DNA of 64,000 nucleotides, taken from contig UYJD01000006.1 in NCBI GenBank assembly GCA_900618795.1, forward strand, positions 1,162,658 through 1,226,657. Direction: 5' to 3'. Shown piece after piece: positions 1-33,415 of the stretch (within the stretch, counting starts at the first letter, position 1; each line of letters opens with the position of its first letter). The notes beneath the pieces were generated by a model. That model saw only the letters and a program-made list of their open reading frames with translations. It was not told where the DNA came from and searched no databases. The position numbers and the translations under genes were made by a program. The DNA comes from Cyanodermella asteris. Its lineage: Eukaryota > Ascomycota > Lecanoromycetes > Ostropales > Stictidaceae.

Positions 1-497
1 CTCCTTCAATAGACCAACAAGCGGCATGCCTGGTGATCACTGCAGAGGAGCGCGGAAAAGGCCCGCCACGAACATATTTTGACAACGACCAAAAGCGCGT
101 CACAGGATAGCGTCCTCGACTCACAATTGTCATGATCACAGACGCTCTATTTATGCTTTAGGGGGTAGATTACACGTGCGAGTGCGCAAACGTGGGCATC
201 TTTCCGAATTGAGTTTCTCCAGGCGGGAGTTCGCCAGACATACCTCGGCTAATGGCACCGAAACCAATCTCTGCAATTCAGGCACCCAACCACCATAAAA
301 CCACACATTCGCATTTTCATACTGGTCATGACCGTTCAACAAGATCAATCAAGAATAAATTCCAATCCCAGTATTCATCATTTTTATTTTTCAGTCATTG
401 CCCCAGCAGCCGGCAAAAAGCCTGAATACAATTCCAATTGAAATTTTTTTTTTGTTCTCCCTCCACACGTCTTCCGATCACAATTTCATCTTCAAAA

Positions 498-983
498 ATG
501 GCGAGCCTGAACCTCATCCTCGACAACACCAACCTGTCCCTCCTGGCCATCCCCGTCTACCACCTCCTCGCCCTGCTCCCCCACGCAATGGCCCTCCGGC
601 TCGTAATCGGCACCCACGGCCTGCGCTACGATAACCGCAACCCGCGCTCCGCCAGCTACCGACAGTCCAACGAGAAGCGCTTCTCGCCCGCGACCTTCGC
701 CAAGTGGGAGCGCCTCGAGGCCTGCCACGCCAACGCCTTCGAGCAGATGCCCCTCTTCTACTCGGCCATCGTCGCCGGAAACCTGGCCGGGCTCGGCAAG
801 GTGCAAGGATCCGGAGGGCTGGACTGGCTGGTCGGAGCGTTCCTCGTCCTGAGATTCGCGTACACGCTGGTGTACGCGTACAACGACACCCAGGCCAAGA
901 GTGCGGCCAGGTCGCTGATTTACTTCACGACTGTCGGGATTTGTTATTCGATCTTGTACAAGGCGGCCAGGGTGTTGGTTTGA
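498..983 (+). CDS. MAPEG-family membrane protein
   Basis: A 161-residue intronless protein starting at the ATG at 498. The frame is open to 438, but the longer start adds only low-quality sequence. It has hydrophobic segments at about residues 9-35, 78-95, 106-125 and 135-158, consistent with a four-helix membrane protein. Between the first two lies a basic loop ending in a WERLEACHANAFE-like stretch, which resembles the E-R-x-x-x-A-x-x-N-x-x-E signature of MAPEG proteins (membrane-associated proteins in eicosanoid and glutathione metabolism). Family members are small glutathione-dependent transferases or peroxidases of endoplasmic reticulum and other membranes. The substrate cannot be told from sequence. 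Length fits the family. Confidence 0.8.
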   Translation: MASLNLILDNTNLSLLAIPVYHLLALLPHAMALRLVIGTHGLRYDNRNPRSASYRQSNEKRFSPATFAKWERLEACHANAFEQMPLFYSAIVAGNLAGLGKVQGSGGLDWLVGAFLVLRFAYTLVYAYNDTQAKSAARSLIYFTTVGICYSILYKAARVLV

Positions 984-1188
984 AGGGATTTGCGAGAACG
1001 TGGGGTGGGGGGAGGGGGGAGGACGAGGTAGACTAATGATTGTGAAACTCGAGCAAATTGAAAAAAAAACCATGGATCCCGAAAATCGCGGGATTCGAAA
1101 TCAGACTTCTTGGAGCCGAATTTCTTTGCCTTTTTAAACGTTGTATCAAGCGAAAAGCTCCCGGGGGGGGGAGGGACGAATTGGAAAC

Positions 1189-1654
1189 TCAATTGGCGAA
1201 TCCCATGCCTTTTCGCCACCAGCCCCAGATCCCTCGCCGCTCCATTTCCGAGCCGAATTCTTTGACGGTGGCGCATTCCATCAGGTGGCCGGGCGACACG
1301 TGGAACGTCTCGAGCGACTTTGACGCCTCCACGCTCTCGCTCACGGGCCCGGGACGTGAAGCGAGTTGGTAATCTTTGTATTTGAGACGCTGCAAATAAT
1401 CAACGTAAGCCTTTTTTTCATCTCCACACAATTTAATTAATCTGGGGGGTTTTTTGGGGGTCGGCGCCAACCTGTACAGTGGCAACCCAGTCCTTGACGC
1501 CGTCTTCTTCGCCCTCGACGTACATGATTCCCGGTGAGCCGCCGCTGCAGAGGAAGCATGAGACGTTGAGGGCCTTGGCTGCTGTCTTGAGGGTTGAGAC
1601 TTTTTTGCGGGACGTGATGTGGTGGGTTCTGATGAGAGCGTGGTAAATGGCCAT
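1189..1654 (-). CDS. Prp3_C/DUF1115-domain protein, apparently lacking its RWD half
   Basis: Two exons (1654-1472 and 1389-1189; intron 1390-1471, donor GTTGGC, acceptor TTTGCAG) give 127 residues. The first exon has the IYH..I....HITSRKK block and a SGGSPGIMYVEG segment, followed across the intron by VQRLKYKDYQL. Together these match the C-terminal domain shared by RWDD2-like proteins and Prp3 (PF06544). Family members normally carry an RWD domain in front. Here the frame stays open without an ATG only to about 1725, and Hsp104 starts divergently at 2022, so there is little room for it. Either a short first exon is missed or this is a reduced copy. Function of the family is poorly known; RWD proteins often act as binding adaptors. 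Confidence 0.6.
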
Positions 1655-1755
1655 GATCTTGCGAAGAAGTTCTGGTTCACATTGGCTTAGGATGCGTGTC
1701 TTATGATGGGACTTTCATCGTGAGCTTTGTGCTGTCAGCAAGGCTATGACGATGC

Positions 1756-1763
1756 TTCCAGAA
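1756..1763 (+). promoter_or_regulatory. Candidate heat-shock element
   Basis: TTCcaGAA forms a tail-to-tail nTTCnnGAAn pair 259 bp before the Hsp104 start. Degenerate GAG and CTC units follow at 5-bp phasing. This is the binding pattern of the heat-shock factor Hsf1, and Hsp104 genes are classic Hsf1 targets. Two good units are below the usual three, so the call is tentative. Confidence 0.4.
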
Positions 1764-2021
1764 GGCGCCCGAGTGCTCTGGCGACCTGCAGCACATTCAG
1801 GTGAGCGCTCGCCCATTCCTGCCCAACTCGCTTTTGTGTATATCAAGGCTTTCCTTCTTACCCTGTTTGCCATTTTCATTGTTTGCTCCATTTCTCTTGC
1901 AAACATCACCATCAAAACGTTTCGGCCTACACACGCCTGATTTTGCTGCACACTACACGCCCCACACCAAGCCTGCGATCGCCTACGCAACCAAGCACAG
2001 CAGCTACACCGACCACCAACC

Positions 2022-4820
2022 ATGGCTGCCTCTGGCATGCAGTTCACTGACCGGGCGCAGAAGGCGCTCGGCGACGCACACGATCTCGCACAGCAATATG
2101 CCCACTCTCAGATCCTCCCTCTTCACCTCGCAGTCTCCTTGCTCGATCCTCCGGTAGACGAATCCAAGGACCAGCAAAACAGTTCGGCCCATGGCTCTCA
2201 TGCCGCAGCGTCGGCCCCGCTCTTCAAGCAAGTCATCGAGCGCGCTCATGGCGACCCCCAACTGCTCGATCGTGCCATGAAAAAGGCTCTGGTGCGCTTA
2301 CCGAGTCAAGACCCACCACCAGATCACGTCTCCGTCTCGCCCCAATTTTCGAAAGTTCTGAGGAAAGCGAACGAGACACAAAAGACCCAGAAAGATAGCT
2401 ATGTCGCCGTTGACCATCTCATCATTGGACTCGCCGAAGATGCCTCCATTCAGCGATGCTTGGCGGATGCCAACATCCCAAAGACAAGCTTGGTCACCGA
2501 TGCCATCAGCTCGATACGTGGCACACGACGGGTGGATTCCAAGACTGCAGACGCGGAGGAGGAAAACGAAAACTTGAAGAAGTTCACAATCGACATGACA
2601 GCATTAGCAAGAGAGGGCAAAATGGATCCGGTCATTGGACGTGAAGAGGAAATTCGCAGAGTCATTCGGATCCTGTCGAGACGGACGAAGAACAACCCCG
2701 TACTCATCGGTGAGCCTGGTGTTGGAAAGACCACGGTTGTCGAAGGCCTCGCTCAGCGTATTGTCAACTCGGACGTACCCGCAAACCTTGCTGCTTGCAA
2801 GCTGCTGTCTCTCGACGTTGGTGCACTGGTTGCCGGCAGCAAATACAGGGGCGAGTTTGAGGAGCGGATGAAGGGTGTCTTGAAGGAGGTCGAAGATTCC
2901 AAGGAGATGATTGTTCTGTTTGTGGACGAGATTCACTTACTCATGGGCGCTGGCTCGAGTGGTGAGGGCGGCATGGACGCCGCAAACCTTCTCAAGCCTA
3001 TGCTGGCGCGTGGCCAGCTCCACTGCATCGGCGCGACGACACTGAGCGAATACCGCAAGTATATCGAGAAAGATCAGGCGTTTGAGCGACGCTTCCAACA
3101 AGTCCTTGTCAAGGAACCATCTATTCCGGAAACGATTTCCATTCTTCGTGGACTCAAGGAGAAGTATGAGGTCCACCACGGTGTCAATATTCTAGATGGT
3201 GCCATCGTCGCAGCCGCGAACCTGGCCTCACGCTATCTTACCGCACGCCGTCTGCCCGACTCGGCAGTCGATCTCATCGACGAGGCAGCTGCCGCTGTCA
3301 GAGTCGAACGAGATTCTCAGCCTGAAGCACTTGACAACCTGGAACGCCGCTTGAATCAACTTCAGATTGAGATACACGCCTTGGAGCGTGAGAAGGACGA
3401 GGCTTCTCAAGCTCGTCTCGCTCAAGCCAAGCAGGAGTTTGCCAACGTCAAGGAAGAGTTGACCCCTCTACGCGAGAAGTACGAGCAAGAAAAGGAGCGC
3501 AGCAAGGAAATCCAAGACGCTCGCCTCAAGCTTGACTCGTTGGGATCCAAGCTCGAAGAGGCAAAGCGCAACAACGACTTTGCCACGGCCTCCGATTTGC
3601 AATACTACGCCATCCCGGAACTGAAAGAACGCATTGAGAAGCTTGAACGCGAGAAAGCGCAAGCCGATTTCGAGGCCGCTTCCAACTACGAGACGGAAAG
3701 CGCCCTCATCACAGACGCAGTTGGTCCCGACCAGATCAACGAGATCGTTGCCCGCTGGACGGGCATCCCGGTCACCAGACTCAAGACCACTGAGAAGGAC
3801 AAGCTCATTCAGATGGAGAGAAACCTGGGAAAGATAGTTGTTGGCCAGAAGGAAGCTGTGACTTCTGTGTCCAACGCTATCCGTCTTCAGCGTTCTGGTC
3901 TTGCTAACCCAAACCAACCGCCCTCGTTCTTGTTCTGCGGTCCATCTGGCACTGGAAAGACTTTGCTCACGAAAGCACTTGCCGAATTTCTTTTCGATGA
4001 TCCCAAAGCTATGATTCGGTTTGACATGTCAGAGTATCAAGAACGTCACGCCCTGTCTCGAATGATCGGTGCACCGCCCGGCTACGTTGGTCATGACGCG
4101 GGTGGACAGCTTACTGAAGCACTTCGACGTCGCCCGTTCTCTATTCTGCTTTTCGACGAAGTTGAAAAGGCTGCCAAGGAGATCTTGACTGTCCTTCTTC
4201 AACTCATGGACGACGGTCGCATCACCGATGGCCAAGGACGTGTTGTCGATGCATCCAACTGCATAGTTGTGATGACGTCAAATCTGGGTGCCGAATTCCT
4301 ATCCCGACAGAATCTCCCATCGGGCAGAATTGACCCCACCACGCGAGAGCTCGTCATGAATGCCTTGCGCAATTATTTCCTGCCAGAATTCCTGAACCGT
4401 ATCAACAGCGTTGTTATCTTCAACCGACTGAGCAGGAAAGAGATCAGGAAAATTGTGGACCTGCGCTTGGCAGAAGTGCAGAAGAGACTGGCTGCCAACG
4501 ATCGCAAGGTGCTCATCGACTGCTCTGACGAGGTCAAGGACTATCTGGGTGAGGCTGGCTACAGCCCTGCATACGGCGCCAGACCCCTGTCGCGACTGAT
4601 TGAACGTGAGGTGCTCAACAGGCTTGCCGTTCTCATTCTCAAGGGGCAAGTTCAGGATGGCGAGACCGCTCGGGTCGAGCTTGTGGAAGGTAAAATCCAC
4701 GTTCTGCCAAACCACACCGATACGGATGAATCTGACGACGCGGAGATGGTTGATGAGGAAGATGCTATGGATGAATTAGAAGACGGAAGAGAACCTGACA
4801 TGGACCTATACGACGACTAA
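2022..4820 (+). CDS. hsp104: Hsp104 / ClpB-type protein disaggregase
   Basis: A 932-residue intronless AAA+ chaperone that, with Hsp70, extracts polypeptides from aggregates after heat stress; cytosolic and nuclear in fungi. Order of parts: Clp_N repeats (residues 1-150), first AAA module with Walker A GEPGVGKT at 230-237 and Walker B LFVDEIH, a heptad-rich middle coiled coil at about 420-540, and a second AAA module with Walker A GPSGTGKT at 640-647. These are followed by the Clp C-terminal domain ([13 protein letters not shown]) and an acidic tail ending DLYDD, like the acidic tail by which yeast Hsp104 docks TPR proteins. The acidic tail and lack of a targeting peptide argue for the cytosolic Hsp104 rather than mitochondrial Hsp78. 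Length fits the family. A candidate heat-shock element lies upstream. Confidence 0.97.
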
Positions 4821-21964: not shown

Positions 21965-22042
21965 ATGGCAGACTCCACCATCGTCGCAGTCCGTCCGTCA
22001 TGGCTTCGGCTGCCTCACTGGCCAGCAGTCCACGTTCGTTGA
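21965..22042 (+). promoter_or_regulatory. Upstream ORF overlapping the next start codon
   Basis: A 25-codon ORF from the ATG at 21965 (MADSTIVAVRPSWLRL...) ends in TGA at 22040-22042, out of frame with and overlapping the ATG at 22000. Its start context (CGCCATGG) is strong. If transcribed in the same message it would be expected to reduce initiation at 22000. Confidence 0.4.
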
Positions 22043-25000
22043 CCTTACAGCACGCACACGCCGTCCGAGCAAGCAATGCTGTTGCTCGAGGCGAGACCGT
22101 CGACGCTCCTCCTCCTCCGCCTGCTGGCATTGAACGTCCGCCAAAGGGCCATGAACAGCTGTTCACCTACTTTGCTCCCTCCCTCGTCGGCGGCTCCTAC
22201 ACTGTCACGGCGGTGCAGACTGTCAACGCAAATGGCCAGTCGTTGACGCCCTCTCCGACAACCACCAAGGCCTTCAACGTTGACGCACCGCAGTACACCT
22301 TACCTGCCGATGCTGTGCATTCAGTTTTCCCTCCCAATGGTGCTACAGCCCATGTGGAGACCTTACCCCATGTCCTTTTTACCGATCCGTATCTTCCGTG
22401 GGAGCGTCTTGGGGTCGATGAGGGCAACGAGCGCGAGCGGGCGCCATGGCTTGCATTGTTGGCATTCAGCGAAGACGAGCTCGCGTTGTCACCGGGTGAC
22501 CTTGACGCCAACGCCGGTATTCTAGCTGCCACGGCCGAGGCGAAGAAAGCACGAGATGATGGTAAAACTATTCAGCAAACTCCAACTCTGGCACTCAATC
22601 TCGCGGTTTCCGATATTCCCAACATCAAGTCTACCAAAACCCCCGTTGCGCCCCACAATACCGCACGTACCGATGTCATCCTACTCAAGCCTTCTCTTTT
22701 CACGCTCCTCACCAATGACTATACTCCTCAAGGTTATCCTGTTGCCAGTCAGACGCAAGCCAGCGTGGCGCGCTACAAGTACCTAGCTCACGTACGGTAC
22801 TCAAATGCGGAGGGCATGGCGGCAGCCGGCGATGATGGCCTCTACAGTGCGGCCATATCGCATCGTGTCGGTCCGCTTGCTACAGACCACAACAGTCGGA
22901 CTATCGTGCATCTCGTGTCACTCGAAGGGTGGAACAACTGGGATCGAGCGGCACTAAAAGACACGCAATACGTGGCTCTTTCTTCCCTGTACTCGTGGTC
23001 CTATACCACACTGTCTACAGGAGCAACGAATGTGGCGGAGACTTTCAAATCACTGAGCGAAAGCCGTGGTCCTCTTCGAGTGCCACAAAAGGTGCTCGAC
23101 ACATTCGATGCGTCTCCAGCGGCGCAACGCGTCAAAGCACGCCTCGAAGATGGATATACTCTGGTCAAATATGTGACGCAGACTGGCGAGGAGACGGCCG
23201 CTATCACTCGAGGCCCTTTGACGCCTACCAAACCGCCTAAGAAGCTGGGACCGACGTGGGACTCGATCTCTGTCAGCGGCGCCAATCTTCAGATCTTCGA
23301 CACTGCAACAGGCTTGATGGACCTCACTTACTCCACGGCATGGACTCTGGGCAAATCACTCGCACTTTCCGACCAGGTCTTTCTCGCCGCACTTGGTCGT
23401 ATCCGTGCGACCTGCGATGCGTATGCGCTTGACAAAGCCAAAGCTAAGCTCCTCGCAGCTAGGGGAGCCCATACATCTCGAGAGGCCACAGTGTCGACAC
23501 TTGCAAAGCATGTGGCAGTTCTCGCCGATATTGCGCATGGCACATCTCGTACACCCGATCCGGCTGGAAGCTCAGCTGCGCAGCCTGGTAATACTAGTAC
23601 TTCTCCGCTCGATCTCTCGCGAGACGATCACCATATCAACGCGGAATTTGAGGCTGCGTCGGCCGTCAAAGTGACAGAGCTTACCTCAAGTGCCGACGGT
23701 GACATGTCGAAGATCTTCAACGAGCTCAACAAACCTACCTCTACTGACTGGAACGTGATACTCACGTGGGTGGTCGACAAGCTATACTTGTTCAACGTCC
23801 CCTCACCGTATCTTCTCCCCGAGCCATCGACTCTCCCGAATGAAAGCTTGCGCCTCTTTTGTATTGATCCTCACTGGACGGATGCCCTGATTGACGGAGC
23901 TCTCAGTCTGGCTAACCATATGCACCGCAGTGACGATGTGCTGCGCCGCAAGCTCAAGGATGCCATCAATAACTACTTCACAACCACAGATCCCAGTCTG
24001 GGCTATCGGCCACAGCGTCCGACTTATGGCTTCCTCCTCCGCTCCGATCTTGTGCGTGACTTTCCCGATCTGCATGTGACTGCTCCGATTCCTGCCCCGG
24101 CCAGCGGCAATGCGGATCCGGGCGAGCAGAAGCGGGCACCAGTGCTCCGACACGAACGATTGAACGACGATGTCCTGATGTGCTTGTTCGATCGAAAACC
24201 GAGTACCAAGGAACTAGCATCCCTAACCTTCACACAACCCGCTCACCAGCAGTACTTCAGCGTTGCGGAATTTATAACCAGCGACCTTCTGAAGACTCGG
24301 TTCAAACGCGTGCACTCTCAGCCTCCAAAAGAAGGTCAGACGCAGTACGGATCTTACGACGAGTTCCCACTCACTGCCAAGCGTGACCCAGCAAAGCCCG
24401 ATGAAAGTCGACTCTTCATCTGGGGCGAAGGCGACGATAAGGATAAAGCCCGATTCCTGAATTTGGAGGCCTTCAACAAGCAGGTACTCGCACAACTGGA
24501 TGCAGACCCGGAAAAGCCATTCTCGGACAACATGTCGACATCGGCGCTTGTTGGCTACCAACTTGGTGCACCAGTCTACGAACTCAGTCTGGTTGCTGAT
24601 CCCTCGGCAGATGACTCCACGGATGACTCTGACGATAAGCCAGATGATACGGTCGTGGGACCACTACGCATGTTGCAGCCTCTGCCACAGGACACTAATG
24701 CAGAACCAAACTCAATCAGCAACACAGCCAAGCTGGACGAGAACCTCATCAACGGCGGCAGCGATACGACATCTTCCCGCGAGCTCGTTGAGCCCACGAA
24801 CCCTCCACCACACCACCCCATTGTCCTTGCCGGCAGCAGCAACATCGTCCGCAAAGCCGTAACCGCACGCATCGCCGCCGCGGACTCGGGTCACGACGCG
24901 GCGCCGAAGTTTGAGTTCCTGCTCAGCTCCATCGACCGGTACAACCGGCCGATCGCAACCAACACGGGGTACCAGATGGACCTGGTCTTCTCGATCAAAA

Positions 25001-25389
25001 TCACCGACGCGGACAAGCGCGACGTCAATATCCAGCAGATCCTAGTGCAGGTGCCCATGGGCAAGAAGAGCGACGCCGACGGCGATGCCAAGTTCCTGCT
25101 CGAGGGCTATGACGGGCCGGGCCCGGTCATGGTCAGCAACCTGCGCTGGAACGTCGTCGTCAGCCAGCGCAAGGTCGACGGCGTGCTCGAGCTGACCCTC
25201 CTGCCGCGGTCGACCGGCGGCTCGGTCCACGTCAAGCGTGCGCGAGACTGTAGCTTCATCCTGCCCATGGTGCGCGTCAACACGTATACCGGCGAGACGT
25301 ATGTCAAGATCTCGCAGGTCGTCAGCTATGTCGAGTTGCCGGATATCCCTTCCTCGCTGTCGGTCAGGCTGGAGCCGCTACGGGCTTGA
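22000..25389 (+). CDS. Large intronless protein of unknown function, 1129 residues
   Basis: One uninterrupted frame from the ATG at 22000. No signal peptide or membrane helix. Recognisable blocks: FTYFAPSLVGGSYTV near residue 55, VHSVFPP near 106, LPHVLFTDPYLPWERL near 122, RAPWLALLAF near 148, RTIVHLVSLEGW near 305, YSWSYTT near 335, LEDGYTLVKYVTQTGEET near 385, then RGPLTP and DLTYSTAWTLGKSLAL near 445. A C-terminal beta-rich half follows. Acidic linkers occur near residue 870. From memory, bacterial proteins encoded near contractile tail-like loci share such a VHSVFPP / LPWER / PWLALL order; I could not check this. Single-exon structure at this length is unlike most neighbours, and the last 500 bp are markedly more GC-rich. 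Real gene almost certainly; function unknown. Confidence 0.85.
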   Translation: MASAASLASSPRSLTLQHAHAVRASNAVARGETVDAPPPPPAGIERPPKGHEQLFTYFAPSLVGGSYTVTAVQTVNANGQSLTPSPTTTKAFNVDAPQYTLPADAVHSVFPPNGATAHVETLPHVLFTDPYLPWERLGVDEGNERERAPWLALLAFSEDELALSPGDLDANAGILAATAEAKKARDDGKTIQQTPTLALNLAVSDIPNIKSTKTPVAPHNTARTDVILLKPSLFTLLTNDYTPQGYPVASQTQASVARYKYLAHVRYSNAEGMAAAGDDGLYSAAISHRVGPLATDHNSRTIVHLVSLEGWNNWDRAALKDTQYVALSSLYSWSYTTLSTGATNVAETFKSLSESRGPLRVPQKVLDTFDASPAAQRVKARLEDGYTLVKYVTQTGEETAAITRGPLTPTKPPKKLGPTWDSISVSGANLQIFDTATGLMDLTYSTAWTLGKSLALSDQVFLAALGRIRATCDAYALDKAKAKLLAARGAHTSREATVSTLAKHVAVLADIAHGTSRTPDPAGSSAAQPGNTSTSPLDLSRDDHHINAEFEAASAVKVTELTSSADGDMSKIFNELNKPTSTDWNVILTWVVDKLYLFNVPSPYLLPEPSTLPNESLRLFCIDPHWTDALIDGALSLANHMHRSDDVLRRKLKDAINNYFTTTDPSLGYRPQRPTYGFLLRSDLVRDFPDLHVTAPIPAPASGNADPGEQKRAPVLRHERLNDDVLMCLFDRKPSTKELASLTFTQPAHQQYFSVAEFITSDLLKTRFKRVHSQPPKEGQTQYGSYDEFPLTAKRDPAKPDESRLFIWGEGDDKDKARFLNLEAFNKQVLAQLDADPEKPFSDNMSTSALVGYQLGAPVYELSLVADPSADDSTDDSDDKPDDTVVGPLRMLQPLPQDTNAEPNSISNTAKLDENLINGGSDTTSSRELVEPTNPPPHHPIVLAGSSNIVRKAVTARIAAADSGHDAAPKFEFLLSSIDRYNRPIATNTGYQMDLVFSIKITDADKRDVNIQQILVQVPMGKKSDADGDAKFLLEGYDGPGPVMVSNLRWNVVVSQRKVDGVLELTLLPRSTGGSVHVKRARDCSFILPMVRVNTYTGETYVKISQVVSYVELPDIPSSLSVRLEPLRA

Positions 25390-26605
25390 GGGGCTGGCGA
25401 TGAGTTGATGCGGCTTCTGAATGACGTGTAGATGGCGCCCCAGAGGTCAAGTTGCTAGGAAGGCTTCGTACGACTTGTTGTAGCGCATGCGGAAGTGGTT
25501 GGGGCGACCAAAGGCGGGATGAGCGCTGGTGGCGACAGAACATGAGGGGGAATCTCAGGCTGGCTGTACGGGCGTTCATCACAGAACTGACCCACAGGTT
25601 CGGCTTGTTCGCTGGTTGGGGTAGGAGGTGCATAGAGATATTCAGTCACATCCGATCGACTGACAGGAATCAATCAAGTCATGAACCACACTTGTTCACA
25701 GTAAGACACAGCCTCGACCGATCGCCGGAAAGTGCACTATGCTGTCAGTGAATTGTGGCTGCTAAGAGTAGCGAGCTGAAGGGTCCGGTTAGCCTACCTG
25801 TTTGTGGAGCTTAGAAGTATGAACGACGAGAAGGAGGATCAAGAACATGAGGAGCCTCAAGATTCCACGGACTTCTGACCGGTACCTAGTCGGTATCTAG
25901 CCGCTGCACGCGTGGCAGTAGTCTCGCCGACTGCGAATGGAGAGCTATACGCCCACGAATTGACCACCCTCGCACCTTGGTGGGGATACCTGGGCAAGCA
26001 TATAGCTACATATCCGCTCTATGTACTGTATACATATGTGTATGTTATATATCAGAAGAGCCTGTAATAAATACGAGGGGCACAAGAGAGCGATTTTACG
26101 CTCAGAAAGGCGAGACGCCACGGCCGAGAACGTGGCTGGCTGAGGAAAATGGACTTCTTGATGAGGCAATGCTCCGTCTCGGCTGTGAGGGGTTCGTCTG
26201 TGACCCCTACTTAGCTCTAATGTTGAGGTTCTCGGACAGGCAGGACTGGTGTCTCATTACAATGTGATTGCAGATGCGACGTGTTCGTGGCTCTACTGCG
26301 TGGGTTGTCTATCGACTCTATCCAGAACATCCATCGACTCCCATAATTGCACACGGAACGACCCCACTCCATCCCACCCACACGCGTGCCATACTATCTA
26401 GTATCACCAGAGCTCAGCTTCGTTTGCAAAGTCCAGCGCTTGTATGCTTTCTTGGCTGAGCGCCACGCCATGTCTATGAACATCTCGGCCACGCCGGCAG
26501 CCATACTAGGCTGCCCGCCACCACGATATCTGGACTGTTGCTGCTGAACAAGGCACTTTTGCATATGCAAGCTTCACAGATCTTGAGGCCAAGCGGAAGC
26601 ACAGC
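25390..26605. other. No gene supported
   Basis: Intergenic; only short overlapping frames. AT-rich near 26000-26060 (TATATATC-type words). Confidence 0.4.
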
Positions 26606-26613
26606 TATATAAA
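26606..26613 (+). promoter_or_regulatory. TATA box of the lectin-like gene
   Basis: TATATAAA at 193 bp before the ATG at 26799, placing a likely transcription start near 26640 and the dinucleotide repeat inside the 5' leader. Confidence 0.5.
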
Positions 26614-26739
26614 CGAACACAGGCGGAGCATGATGGACTTGGATCAAGTTCTTGTCCTCGTCTCCAGCTCCAAATTCGGATTCATACTCACATTCAAATC
26701 CGCCCCCTGCCCCTGATTCCTCTCTAACCACAAACCCCG

Positions 26740-26740
<1 letters not shown>

Positions 26741-26788
<48 letters not shown>
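26741..26788. repeat. (AC)24 microsatellite
   Basis: A perfect 48-bp AC run ending 10 bp before the start codon of the lectin-like gene. Confidence 0.98.
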
Positions 26789-26790
<2 letters not shown>

Positions 26791-26798
26791 CTAGCGAA

Positions 26799-27907
26799 AT
26801 GTCGTACACGTCAAGCTGGATCCTGGCGGCCCAGAAGAAGCTGTCCATCTTCAATGTGTCGGACAACCACCACCTGGCGATGCGGACATATGATGCCGAC
26901 AGCGGCTCGACATCGGTAGCAACCAGTCCCGCTGAGCTGGCGGGCGGTCCCATCACTGATGGCTCGGCCATCGTGTCAGTGCCACTTCTCGACTGGGTAT
27001 GTGCGGGCTGCTTTTCCAAGACTTCGTCATTATAATAGTTGTGATGAGAATCCAGAATCTCTTGCTGACATATCATGTTCACCCCTCCAGACGAGGGTTT
27101 TCGGCTGGACCAACGGCAAAGACTCGCAAGGATCAGAGGAGAACCACCTCTTCATGCTGAGCCCGGTGCACCAGTGGATCACCAAGACGGCCACCAAGAA
27201 GGCCAACACCAGTCTTGCGGGCTGCAGCAATGGTAAGACAACCTGGCTATACTACGCGTGAGTCACCCCTATCACAGTGTGATATACAAAGCATGTAGCA
27301 TGATAACTGACAGAGGGTTCCAGTGACAAGGACGAATCGATCCGGGAGCAGCCATACAACGGCATCGGCCAGGGCGGTCAAGCAGGCACTCTCATCAACG
27401 AGTCAGTCCGGCTCCTGCCCCAGACCCGATTTGCAGCAACCTTGACCGATGGCAACGAGCGGCTGGTCGCCTACCAGCCCAAGACGGGCAAGATCGAGAT
27501 CTTCAACATCAGCAAGGGCACAAGTAAGTCAACCCAGTACTCAATCGCCTTCCACCCGCAGCTATCAAACCGCCCTTTCCCTTTCTTTCTAACACCACCT
27601 GCTCACAGGCTCCACCCTCGGCAACACGCATCCCCGGCCGAAGACGCCGCTCGCCCTGACCCAGTACACCAAGGGCACGACGTCGTACGTCGACCTGTAC
27701 TATCTCGGCGTCGACAACCCGGCGCAGCTGCACCGATCCCGCAGCGTCGACGGCAAGGACTTTCAGGACATCATTATCACGAACCTCGGTGCGCCTGACG
27801 CGGCCACGTCCATCTCGGCGACCTGGTCCCACGACTTGCAGCGGGTCGTGCTCACTTTCGTCACTGATGACAGCCAATTGAATACCCAGACGGACGAGAA
27901 CAACTGA
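26799..27907 (+). CDS. Probable beta-propeller lectin (fucose-lectin-like)
   Basis: Four exons: 26799-26996, 27091-27257, 27324-27523 and 27609-27907, with introns of 94, 66 and 85 bp (donors GTATGT, GTGAGT, GTAAGT). Phases agree and give 287 residues. I start at the ATG just after the AC repeat; the frame is open upstream but has no ATG. The product has no signal peptide and is a chain of short beta blocks: SSWILAAQKKLSIFNVSD, TRVFGWTNG, NHLFMLSP, KTTWLYYADKDESIREQPYNG, RFAATLTDGNERLVAYQPKTGKIEIF, SYVDLYYLGVD. Repeats with Trp/Tyr plus Arg/Glu resemble the blades of fungal AAL-type fucose-binding lectins. The family call is tentative; cytosolic defence or storage lectin is the usual role. 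Confidence 0.65.
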
Positions 27908-32417: not shown

Positions 32418-33415
32418 TGAAGTGTCACGGACAAAGGAAAGACCGATCAGACGTCAGGGACTCTGATCCAATCAGGCACTACTCACGGTACTCGAGGACG
32501 TACCTAGTCGGAGTTAGACTCCGCAACCTATTGCCCTGCTCAACCTATCAAACAGGTTAATAGGTCGAACAGGTTATCTAACTCACCACTTAAGTCTAAT
32601 AAGTATATAGTCGTGCGACTTCGTCGCACTTAGATAGGAGCCCTTAGGCTTAACTTAATAGTATTAATGCTACCTTATTAATCGTAACCTCGCACACCTA
32701 GTTTACCGCACTTAATGAAGACCTAGACCTCCGAGCAACACCTTTAGATGNNNNNNNNNNNNNNNNNNNNNNNNNNNNNNNNNNNNNNNNNNNNNNNNNN
32801 NNNNNNNNNNNNNNNNNNNNNNNNNNNNNNNNNNNNNNNNNNNNNNNNNNNNNNNNNNNNNNNNNNNNNNNNNNNNNNNNNNNNNNNNNNNNNNNNNNNN
32901 NNNNNNNNNNNNNNNNNNNNNNNNNNNNNNNNNNNNNNNNNNNNNNNNNNNNNNNNNNNNNNNNNNNNNNNNNNNNNNNNNNNNNNNNNNNNNNNNNNNN
33001 NNNNNNNNNNNNNNNNNNNNNNNNNNNNNNNNNNNNNNNNNNNNNNNNNNNNNNNNNNNNNNNNNNNNNNNNNNNNNNNNNNNNNNNNNNNNNNNNNNNN
33101 NNNNNNNNNNNNNNNNNNNNNNNNNNNNNNNNNNNNNNNNNNNNNNNNNNNNNNNNNNNNNNNNNNNNNNNNNNNNNNNNNNNNNNNNNNNNNNNNNNNN
33201 NNNNNNNNNNNNNNNNNNNNNNNNNNNNNNNNNNNNNNNNNNNNNNNNNNNNNNNNNNNNNNNNNNNNNNNNNNNNNNNNNNNNNNNNNNNNNNNNNNNN
33301 NNNNNNNNNNNNNNNNNNNNNNNNNNNNNNNNNNNNNNNNNNNNNNNNNNNNNNTGACGCCGACCTTCATTGATCGCCTACATAGTTAACCACCCCGTGC
33401 CCGCGTTACATGAAG
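32418..33415 (+). mobile_element. LTR retroelement insertion (fossil) with target-site duplication
   Basis: The element runs from TGTCACGG at 32423 to GCGTTACA at 33410 and is flanked on both sides by the 5-bp repeat TGAAG (32418-32422 and 33411-33415). TG...CA ends plus a 5-bp duplication are the hallmark of LTR elements. The interior is a gap (32751-33354), so it may be a solo LTR or a full element collapsed in assembly. A related copy lies inverted at 48860-49026. Superfamily not determined. The perfect duplication suggests a fairly recent insertion. Confidence 0.8.

Follow-up and report, generated by a model that had tools for sequence, protein, structure and literature searches.

The 64,000-nt stretch analysed here (the window; Cyanodermella asteris contig UYJD01000006.1, hereafter C5, positions 1,162,658 to 1,226,657) carries on its plus strand an open reading frame (ORF) at 22000-25389 which, by sequence comparison, encodes the fungal counterpart of B, a subunit from a so far undescribed bacterial cassette with the gene order variable enzyme, A (carrying DUF6603, a domain of unknown function), B, C and D. 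The ORF runs for 1129 codons with no internal stop; its first Met lies at 22000, and the reading frame is open already from 21925. It is the sole match to subunit B in its own genome (28.5 Mb, 25 contigs), at C5:1184657-1188043. The following features were delineated within it:

22000..25389, plus strand: fungal subunit B (B core and D-like tail), one uninterrupted ORF, 1129 aa plus stop codon
22177..24579, plus strand: B core, approximately residues 60-860, defined by tblastn, GTDB loci and alignments to bacterial B
24781..25386, plus strand: tail rich in GC at third codon positions (GC3), approximately residues 928-1129, without counterpart in the six bacterial B proteins of alignment A1
24994..25320, plus strand: D-like domain, approximately residues 999-1107, matching the N-terminal domain encoded by D, the fourth gene of the bacterial cassette

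The original prediction, made from the letters of the window, had singled out this ORF as large and intronless. Its uninterrupted course stands, while its length is not exceptional here, because ORFs of 1187, 959 and 874 aa are also present in the window. The motif blocks quoted at the time are all found in the translation, and most of them hold invariant or nearly invariant residues across the 41 rows of alignment A4 (window B and 40 bacterial proteins), for example within VFPP, LPH, LPW, PWLALL, HLVSLEG, GEE, RGPL and TLGKSLAL; 25 columns are invariant over these 41 rows. Searches of Pfam, NCBIfam and PDB sequences with fungal B gave no match. An AlphaFold2 model of the protein had a mean pLDDT (predicted local distance difference test score) of 60, with values of 70 or above in 430 of the 1129 residues, and a Foldseek search of PDB returned nothing for it at E ≤ 0.001, the best hit (E 0.13, small heat-shock proteins, probability 0.14) being regarded as noise.

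Homologues of B were found in bacteria. A tblastn search of plasmids retrieved eight records (Streptomyces 4, Embleya 2, Paenibacillus 2; best E 2e-23), and a scan of GTDB genomes gave 56 loci, mostly from Streptomyces and other Actinomycetota, the remaining carriers being Paenibacillus, Azospirillum, Thiothrix, Paracoccus, Okeania, Bacteroidota, an acidobacterial metagenome-assembled genome and Gemmatimonas. The proposed likeness to uncharacterised bacterial proteins is supported as homology. The bacterial proteins are roughly 700-830 aa long and share 22-29% identity with window B. The cassette spans seven phyla and B is sporadic: in the phylum of one carrier (G012), at least 6 of 396 genomes have it, a lower bound that counts the carrier itself, includes two weak cases and comes from scoring few candidates per genome.

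The gene order was established in 62 loci (56 from GTDB and six from plasmids), in which A, B and C were located by profile searches. B is present in all 62 and is preceded by A in 60, A being missing in L050, a 3.2-kb contig, and in L006. C was found in 58 loci, downstream of B in 56, and a fourth family, D, in 41, where it follows C in 40 (order counted by eye from match coordinates). DUF6603 occurs in all 28 B-carrier genomes searched and in none of 14 control genomes. Among DUF6603 genes of carrier genomes that had not been chosen via B, 10 of 11 adjoin B, a tally that does not include an additional partial DUF6603 match in locus L047. No informative family model matched bacterial B, C or D in the libraries scanned, A, B and C profiles run against PDB sequences gave nothing at E ≤ 1, and the literature searched contained no paper with DUF6603, PF20248 or IPR046538.

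Two long frames were set aside. In Streptomyces eurocidicus (L054, 9983-16213), the B and C matches share one open frame of 2077 aa, which was not used as evidence of fusion because a frameshift may have produced it, the B match being shortened and the length not a multiple of three; a single A-B frame in L024 was set aside on the same grounds. In Streptomyces olivoreticuli, apparently the same cassette lies by both chromosome ends (L038, 66,636-88,720; L039, 8,721,074-8,743,158 of 8,809,793), perhaps within terminal inverted repeats.

The first position of the cassette varies. By Pfam, the ORF before A encodes a metallo-beta-lactamase (MBL) fold over the cut-off in L044 and L002, a subtilase in L046 and L057, and Lipase_3 in L070; in L020 no MBL was detected by Pfam. 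The A protein encoded at 4449-9965 of L036 has a C-terminal lactonase-type beta-propeller. An AlphaFold2 model of one bacterial A (pLDDT 77) consists of a succession of long antiparallel strands whose two-faced alternation scored 2.70, whereas none of 1000 shuffles exceeded 1.92. Its best Foldseek matches in PDB were ApoB100 and outer-membrane barrels; one match in a viral Foldseek library (E 3.7e-8, template modelling (TM) score 0.1) was left uninterpreted. Bacterial D combines a conserved N-terminal domain with a middle part resembling fibronectin type III (FnIII) in one weak PDB-profile match (E 0.064). Tandem D copies in L005 share 45-54 identities per window of about 60 residues, dropping to 12 of 53 at the tip, and those of L018 behave alike.

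Homologues of A and C occur in the same fungal genome as B. A bacterial A query matches C5:1786692-1788455 (E 5.7e-53), within a fungal A gene at C5:1782217-1788617 that scores 499.7 bits against DUF6603 (PF20248; cut-off 27). A 50-nt GT-AG interval at C5:1783157-1783206, a putative intron, joins its two open frames into 2117 aa. At its N-terminus, fungal A resembles the cassette MBL gene, with a profile score of 38.6 bits (HMMER filters off); a matching MBL gene lies upstream of A in six of the 62 bacterial loci, at -130 to 64 nt in four and at 1.1 and 2.9 kb in two. Fungal C occupies open frames in C5:1776696-1781099, scores 622.8 bits against the C profile when read as two frames, and is hit by a bacterial C query in four pieces within C5:1777464-1780826 (best E 5.2e-6). 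Fungal A and C are adjacent on one strand, at most 15 kb from the end of C5. We regard both the membership of window B in the bacterial B family and the presence of A and C in the fungus as nearly certain.

The C-terminal tail of fungal B resembles D. With HMMER filters off, the isolated tail scored 17.3 bits against the D profile and the whole protein 14.2 bits; in controls, 2000 shuffles reached at most 7.5 bits and the reversed tail scored -2.2. The tail corresponds to the D N-terminal domain alone, and pLDDT is mainly below 60 in this region of the B model. Because B ends in a D-like domain and A begins with an MBL-like domain, the fungus, on these profile matches, holds five parts of the cassette in three genes (MBL-like domain-A, C, and B-D-like tail). 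A, B and C do not stand next to each other on one strand, since only C and A adjoin, so the fungal set is a dispersed derivative of the cassette. Compared with the bacterial DUF6603 operons, fungal A is a member of the DUF6603 family and B, C and D are partners of DUF6603 genes; the fungus differs in that its B is unlinked and bears the D-like tail, and in that its A is fused to the MBL-like domain.

GC3 is host-like across most of fungal B, A and C. In B it rises to 0.87 in the last 609 nt, compared with 0.57 in the remainder, and its last 160 codons (0.89) exceed all 750 comparison windows of 160 codons, drawn from 11 stretches (eight window ORFs, the B body, fungal C and fungal A). The GC-rich gene end noted in the original prediction is thus real, yet it is not peculiar to B, because the 3' part of fungal C is likewise GC3-rich (its long frame reaches 0.85 over codons 1000-1099); this makes it less likely that the D-like tail by itself accounts for the high GC at the end of B. 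Elsewhere in the window, about 0.7 kb at 32701-33386 has a GC content of only 3-5% in surroundings of about 52%, another kilobase, at 48-49 kb, is also AT-rich (35% GC), and a minus-strand ORF at 26474-27082 owes an alternating Cys-Val run in its translation to a dinucleotide microsatellite.

Contamination as the source of B was rejected because the gene sits, on a 1.79-Mb contig, among Pkinase_fungal, Fungal_trans and RasGEF genes (six of ten other window ORFs scanned have a Pfam family) and because A has a putative intron. The fungal branches are long in the A, B and C trees (2.16, 2.05 and 2.62) and lie among or beside Actinomycetota-rich groups. In a joint tree the fungus falls with Actinomycetota-rich groups at 92% support in the Shimodaira-Hasegawa-like approximate likelihood ratio test (SH-aLRT), either with the L040/L048/L060 group or with the main group. 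A bacterial origin of the cassette in the fungus is very probable, and the simplest reading of the sequences is that the cassette was probably transferred once, long ago, as a unit, with fusion and dispersal following. The suggestion that B is a transferred and domesticated gene is accordingly plausible, given the other cassette parts, the fusions, the putative intron and the neighbouring genes of fungal families. Other fungi may also carry DUF6603 proteins.

Accumulation of bacterial genes at chromosome ends is described for yeasts (PMC13376923). Fungal A and C are alike in their closeness to the contig end, and fungal B is unlike in being internal to the contig; the C5 end is a candidate chromosome end. 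The nearest precedent for the whole set is the fungal toxin complex (Tc) of Metarhizium (PMC13236867), a bacterial-type, multi-subunit complex for which its authors suggest horizontal transfer; two of its subunit genes lie side by side, and the third sits at another place in the genome. Both cases present a dispersed bacterial-type complex in a fungus, ours being a predicted one; here, however, the third gene (B) lies on the same contig, and Pfam scans of window B, fungal A and the bacterial A-D proteins of L004 and L005 found no TcA, TcB or TcC family.

The original prediction had further placed B in a setting of contractile-tail-like loci, and this did not hold up. A tblastn search of 50,697 phage records with B gave no match, the best PHROGs hit (E 0.16) was not accepted, and an IMG/VR scan with six short exact window-B peptides, a weak test, found nothing. 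The baseplate family gp25 (PF04965) gave 32 matches in 22 of 28 carrier genomes and is absent from the other six, mostly drafts; it shares a contig with the cassette in only five genomes, the nearest at about 85 kb, and elsewhere contig breaks hide the distance. Streptomyces extracellular contractile injection systems (PMC10020575, PMC8505568) are like the cassette in genus and in having fibre-like proteins, and unlike it in that no baseplate linkage was detected for the cassette.

Taking these results together, we favour, with a probability of roughly 55%, an explanation in which a bacterial cassette encoding a conflict-type multi-subunit complex was taken over by the fungus. In this explanation the cassette would have entered the fungus probably once, long ago and as a unit; neighbouring operon genes would then have fused (enzyme with A, B with D), A would have acquired an intron and B would have relocated along the chromosome. 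A would form a large two-faced antiparallel beta sheet or barrel, either binding membranes or lipids or serving as a cage, and would carry, or couple to, an exchangeable enzyme. B and C would be large scaffold subunits, and the N-terminal domain of D would dock on B, while in bacteria D would also display a tip for recognition. The complete assembly would serve in inter-organismal conflict, resembling a Tc toxin in its working yet not being one; in the fungus, the tip would have been lost, leaving B as the scaffold for a complex loaded with the enzyme. The conflict function itself is held tentatively: we infer it because an exchangeable enzyme and an exchangeable tip are combined with a conserved chassis. 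The in-frame stop in C casts doubt on whether the fungal complex is still functional. That a contraction-independent multi-subunit effector complex is common to the bacteria and the fungus, its operon rebuilt as three genes by fusions, is possible and on balance somewhat unlikely.

Several observations weigh against this explanation. As for the cassette, the C match lies upstream instead of after B in L070 and L072, and the C profile found none in L058, L066, L067 and L068 (4 of 62 loci), only L067 being a short contig. Just five of the 24 ORFs scanned upstream of A with Pfam (4 + 10 + 10) score over an enzyme cut-off (MBL 2, subtilase 2, lipase 1), the remainder having below-cut-off, other or no Pfam families; matches to a ribosome-inactivating-protein-like family before A in L060 (19.7 bits, cut-off 21), to MBL in L036 and to alpha/beta-hydrolase-like parts of A in L065 and L071 all fall under the cut-offs. 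Foldseek TM-scores for the A model are low (0.04-0.32), and the other four of six tandem D pairs have diverged throughout, beyond the tip. In the fungus, the D match is weak, default HMMER filters giving none in fungal B, and the A N-terminus scores 19.4 bits against Pfam Lactamase_B, below the cut-off of 22.7. B lies 0.6 Mb from A and C, and C has an in-frame TAG within an aligned conserved stretch (C5:1777554-1777556; L016 2554-2556), which may reflect decay, an assembly error or read-through. The trees are quick ones with no outgroup, so that long-branch placement is unsure; sampling comprises bacteria and this one fungus, so that an old fungal family or a transfer from fungi to bacteria may also account for the shared genes. 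Assembly, release and toxicity of the complex are proposals.

An unlikely alternative retains the cassette and its transfer and makes it an intracellular immune or conflict system, whose enzyme effector would be triggered when D, B or C senses an invader. The enzymes resemble those of defence systems: the L044 MBL protein matches the PADLOC models of the anti-phage MBLs LmuA (45.5 bits) and RTasMBL (33.7 bits), with NCBIfam 6A-MBL and Avs1a scores far under the cut-offs, and the L057 subtilase matches the PADLOC subtilase and IetS models. CATRA (caspase/TPR-associated) and CHAT genes, known from conflict systems, lie close to the cassette on the Streptomyces plasmid L005 (1-3992). Crude hydropathy per 19 residues, at most 1.09 in B and 1.58 in the sampled bacterial proteins, would also fit; one stretch each is higher in fungal A (1.76, inside DUF6603) and fungal C (1.87, partly before the first Met). 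Yet no PADLOC model was matched by A, B, C or D, each represented by one protein, and the likeness to the Lamassu LmuA, Avs1a and 6A-MBL systems lies in the MBL-fold and subtilase partners; no NTPase sensor turned up in the Pfam scans; and D looks like a surface fibre in its weak FnIII-like match and its variable tip in L005 and L018.

About equally unlikely is a decaying relic, in which the acquired cassette is now failing and B is simply not broken yet. The TAG in C, the lost D tip and the position of A and C close to the contig end would suit such a history, which is countered by the great length of the open frames, 1129 codons in B and, once a single putative intron is removed, 2117 in A, both with conserved residues kept. 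It is improbable that the genes go back to an ancient fungal family from which bacteria obtained them, or form an old set passed down vertically within fungi: the long fungal branches, the host-like GC3 and the putative intron in A speak for this, but the cassette order recurs in seven bacterial phyla with the enzyme and D as separate genes, and presence is sporadic in the phylum of G012. Membership of phage-tail-derived contractile injection loci was rejected as very improbable, gp25 being unlinked (measurable in 5 of 22 genomes) and phage homology of B lacking, in spite of the genes for DUF4280, baseplate-V, pentapeptide-repeat and GH-E nuclease proteins (1-4331) that precede the cassette by about 9 kb on the Paenibacillus plasmid L004, an L068 upstream gene with tail-collar and Gp10_C matches below the cut-offs, and the frequent presence of gp25 somewhere in carrier genomes.

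The analysis outlines a bacterial cassette around DUF6603 and finds its components in a eukaryote. Parts that are separate in bacteria are fused in the fungus, and these fusions hint at parts acting together, the fungal version offering a second system in which to probe function. If the favoured explanation of a bacterial cassette encoding a conflict-type complex is true, the cassette would encode a machine of a new type, to be set alongside Tc toxins and contractile systems, and C. asteris would join Metarhizium with its Tc complex as another fungal case.

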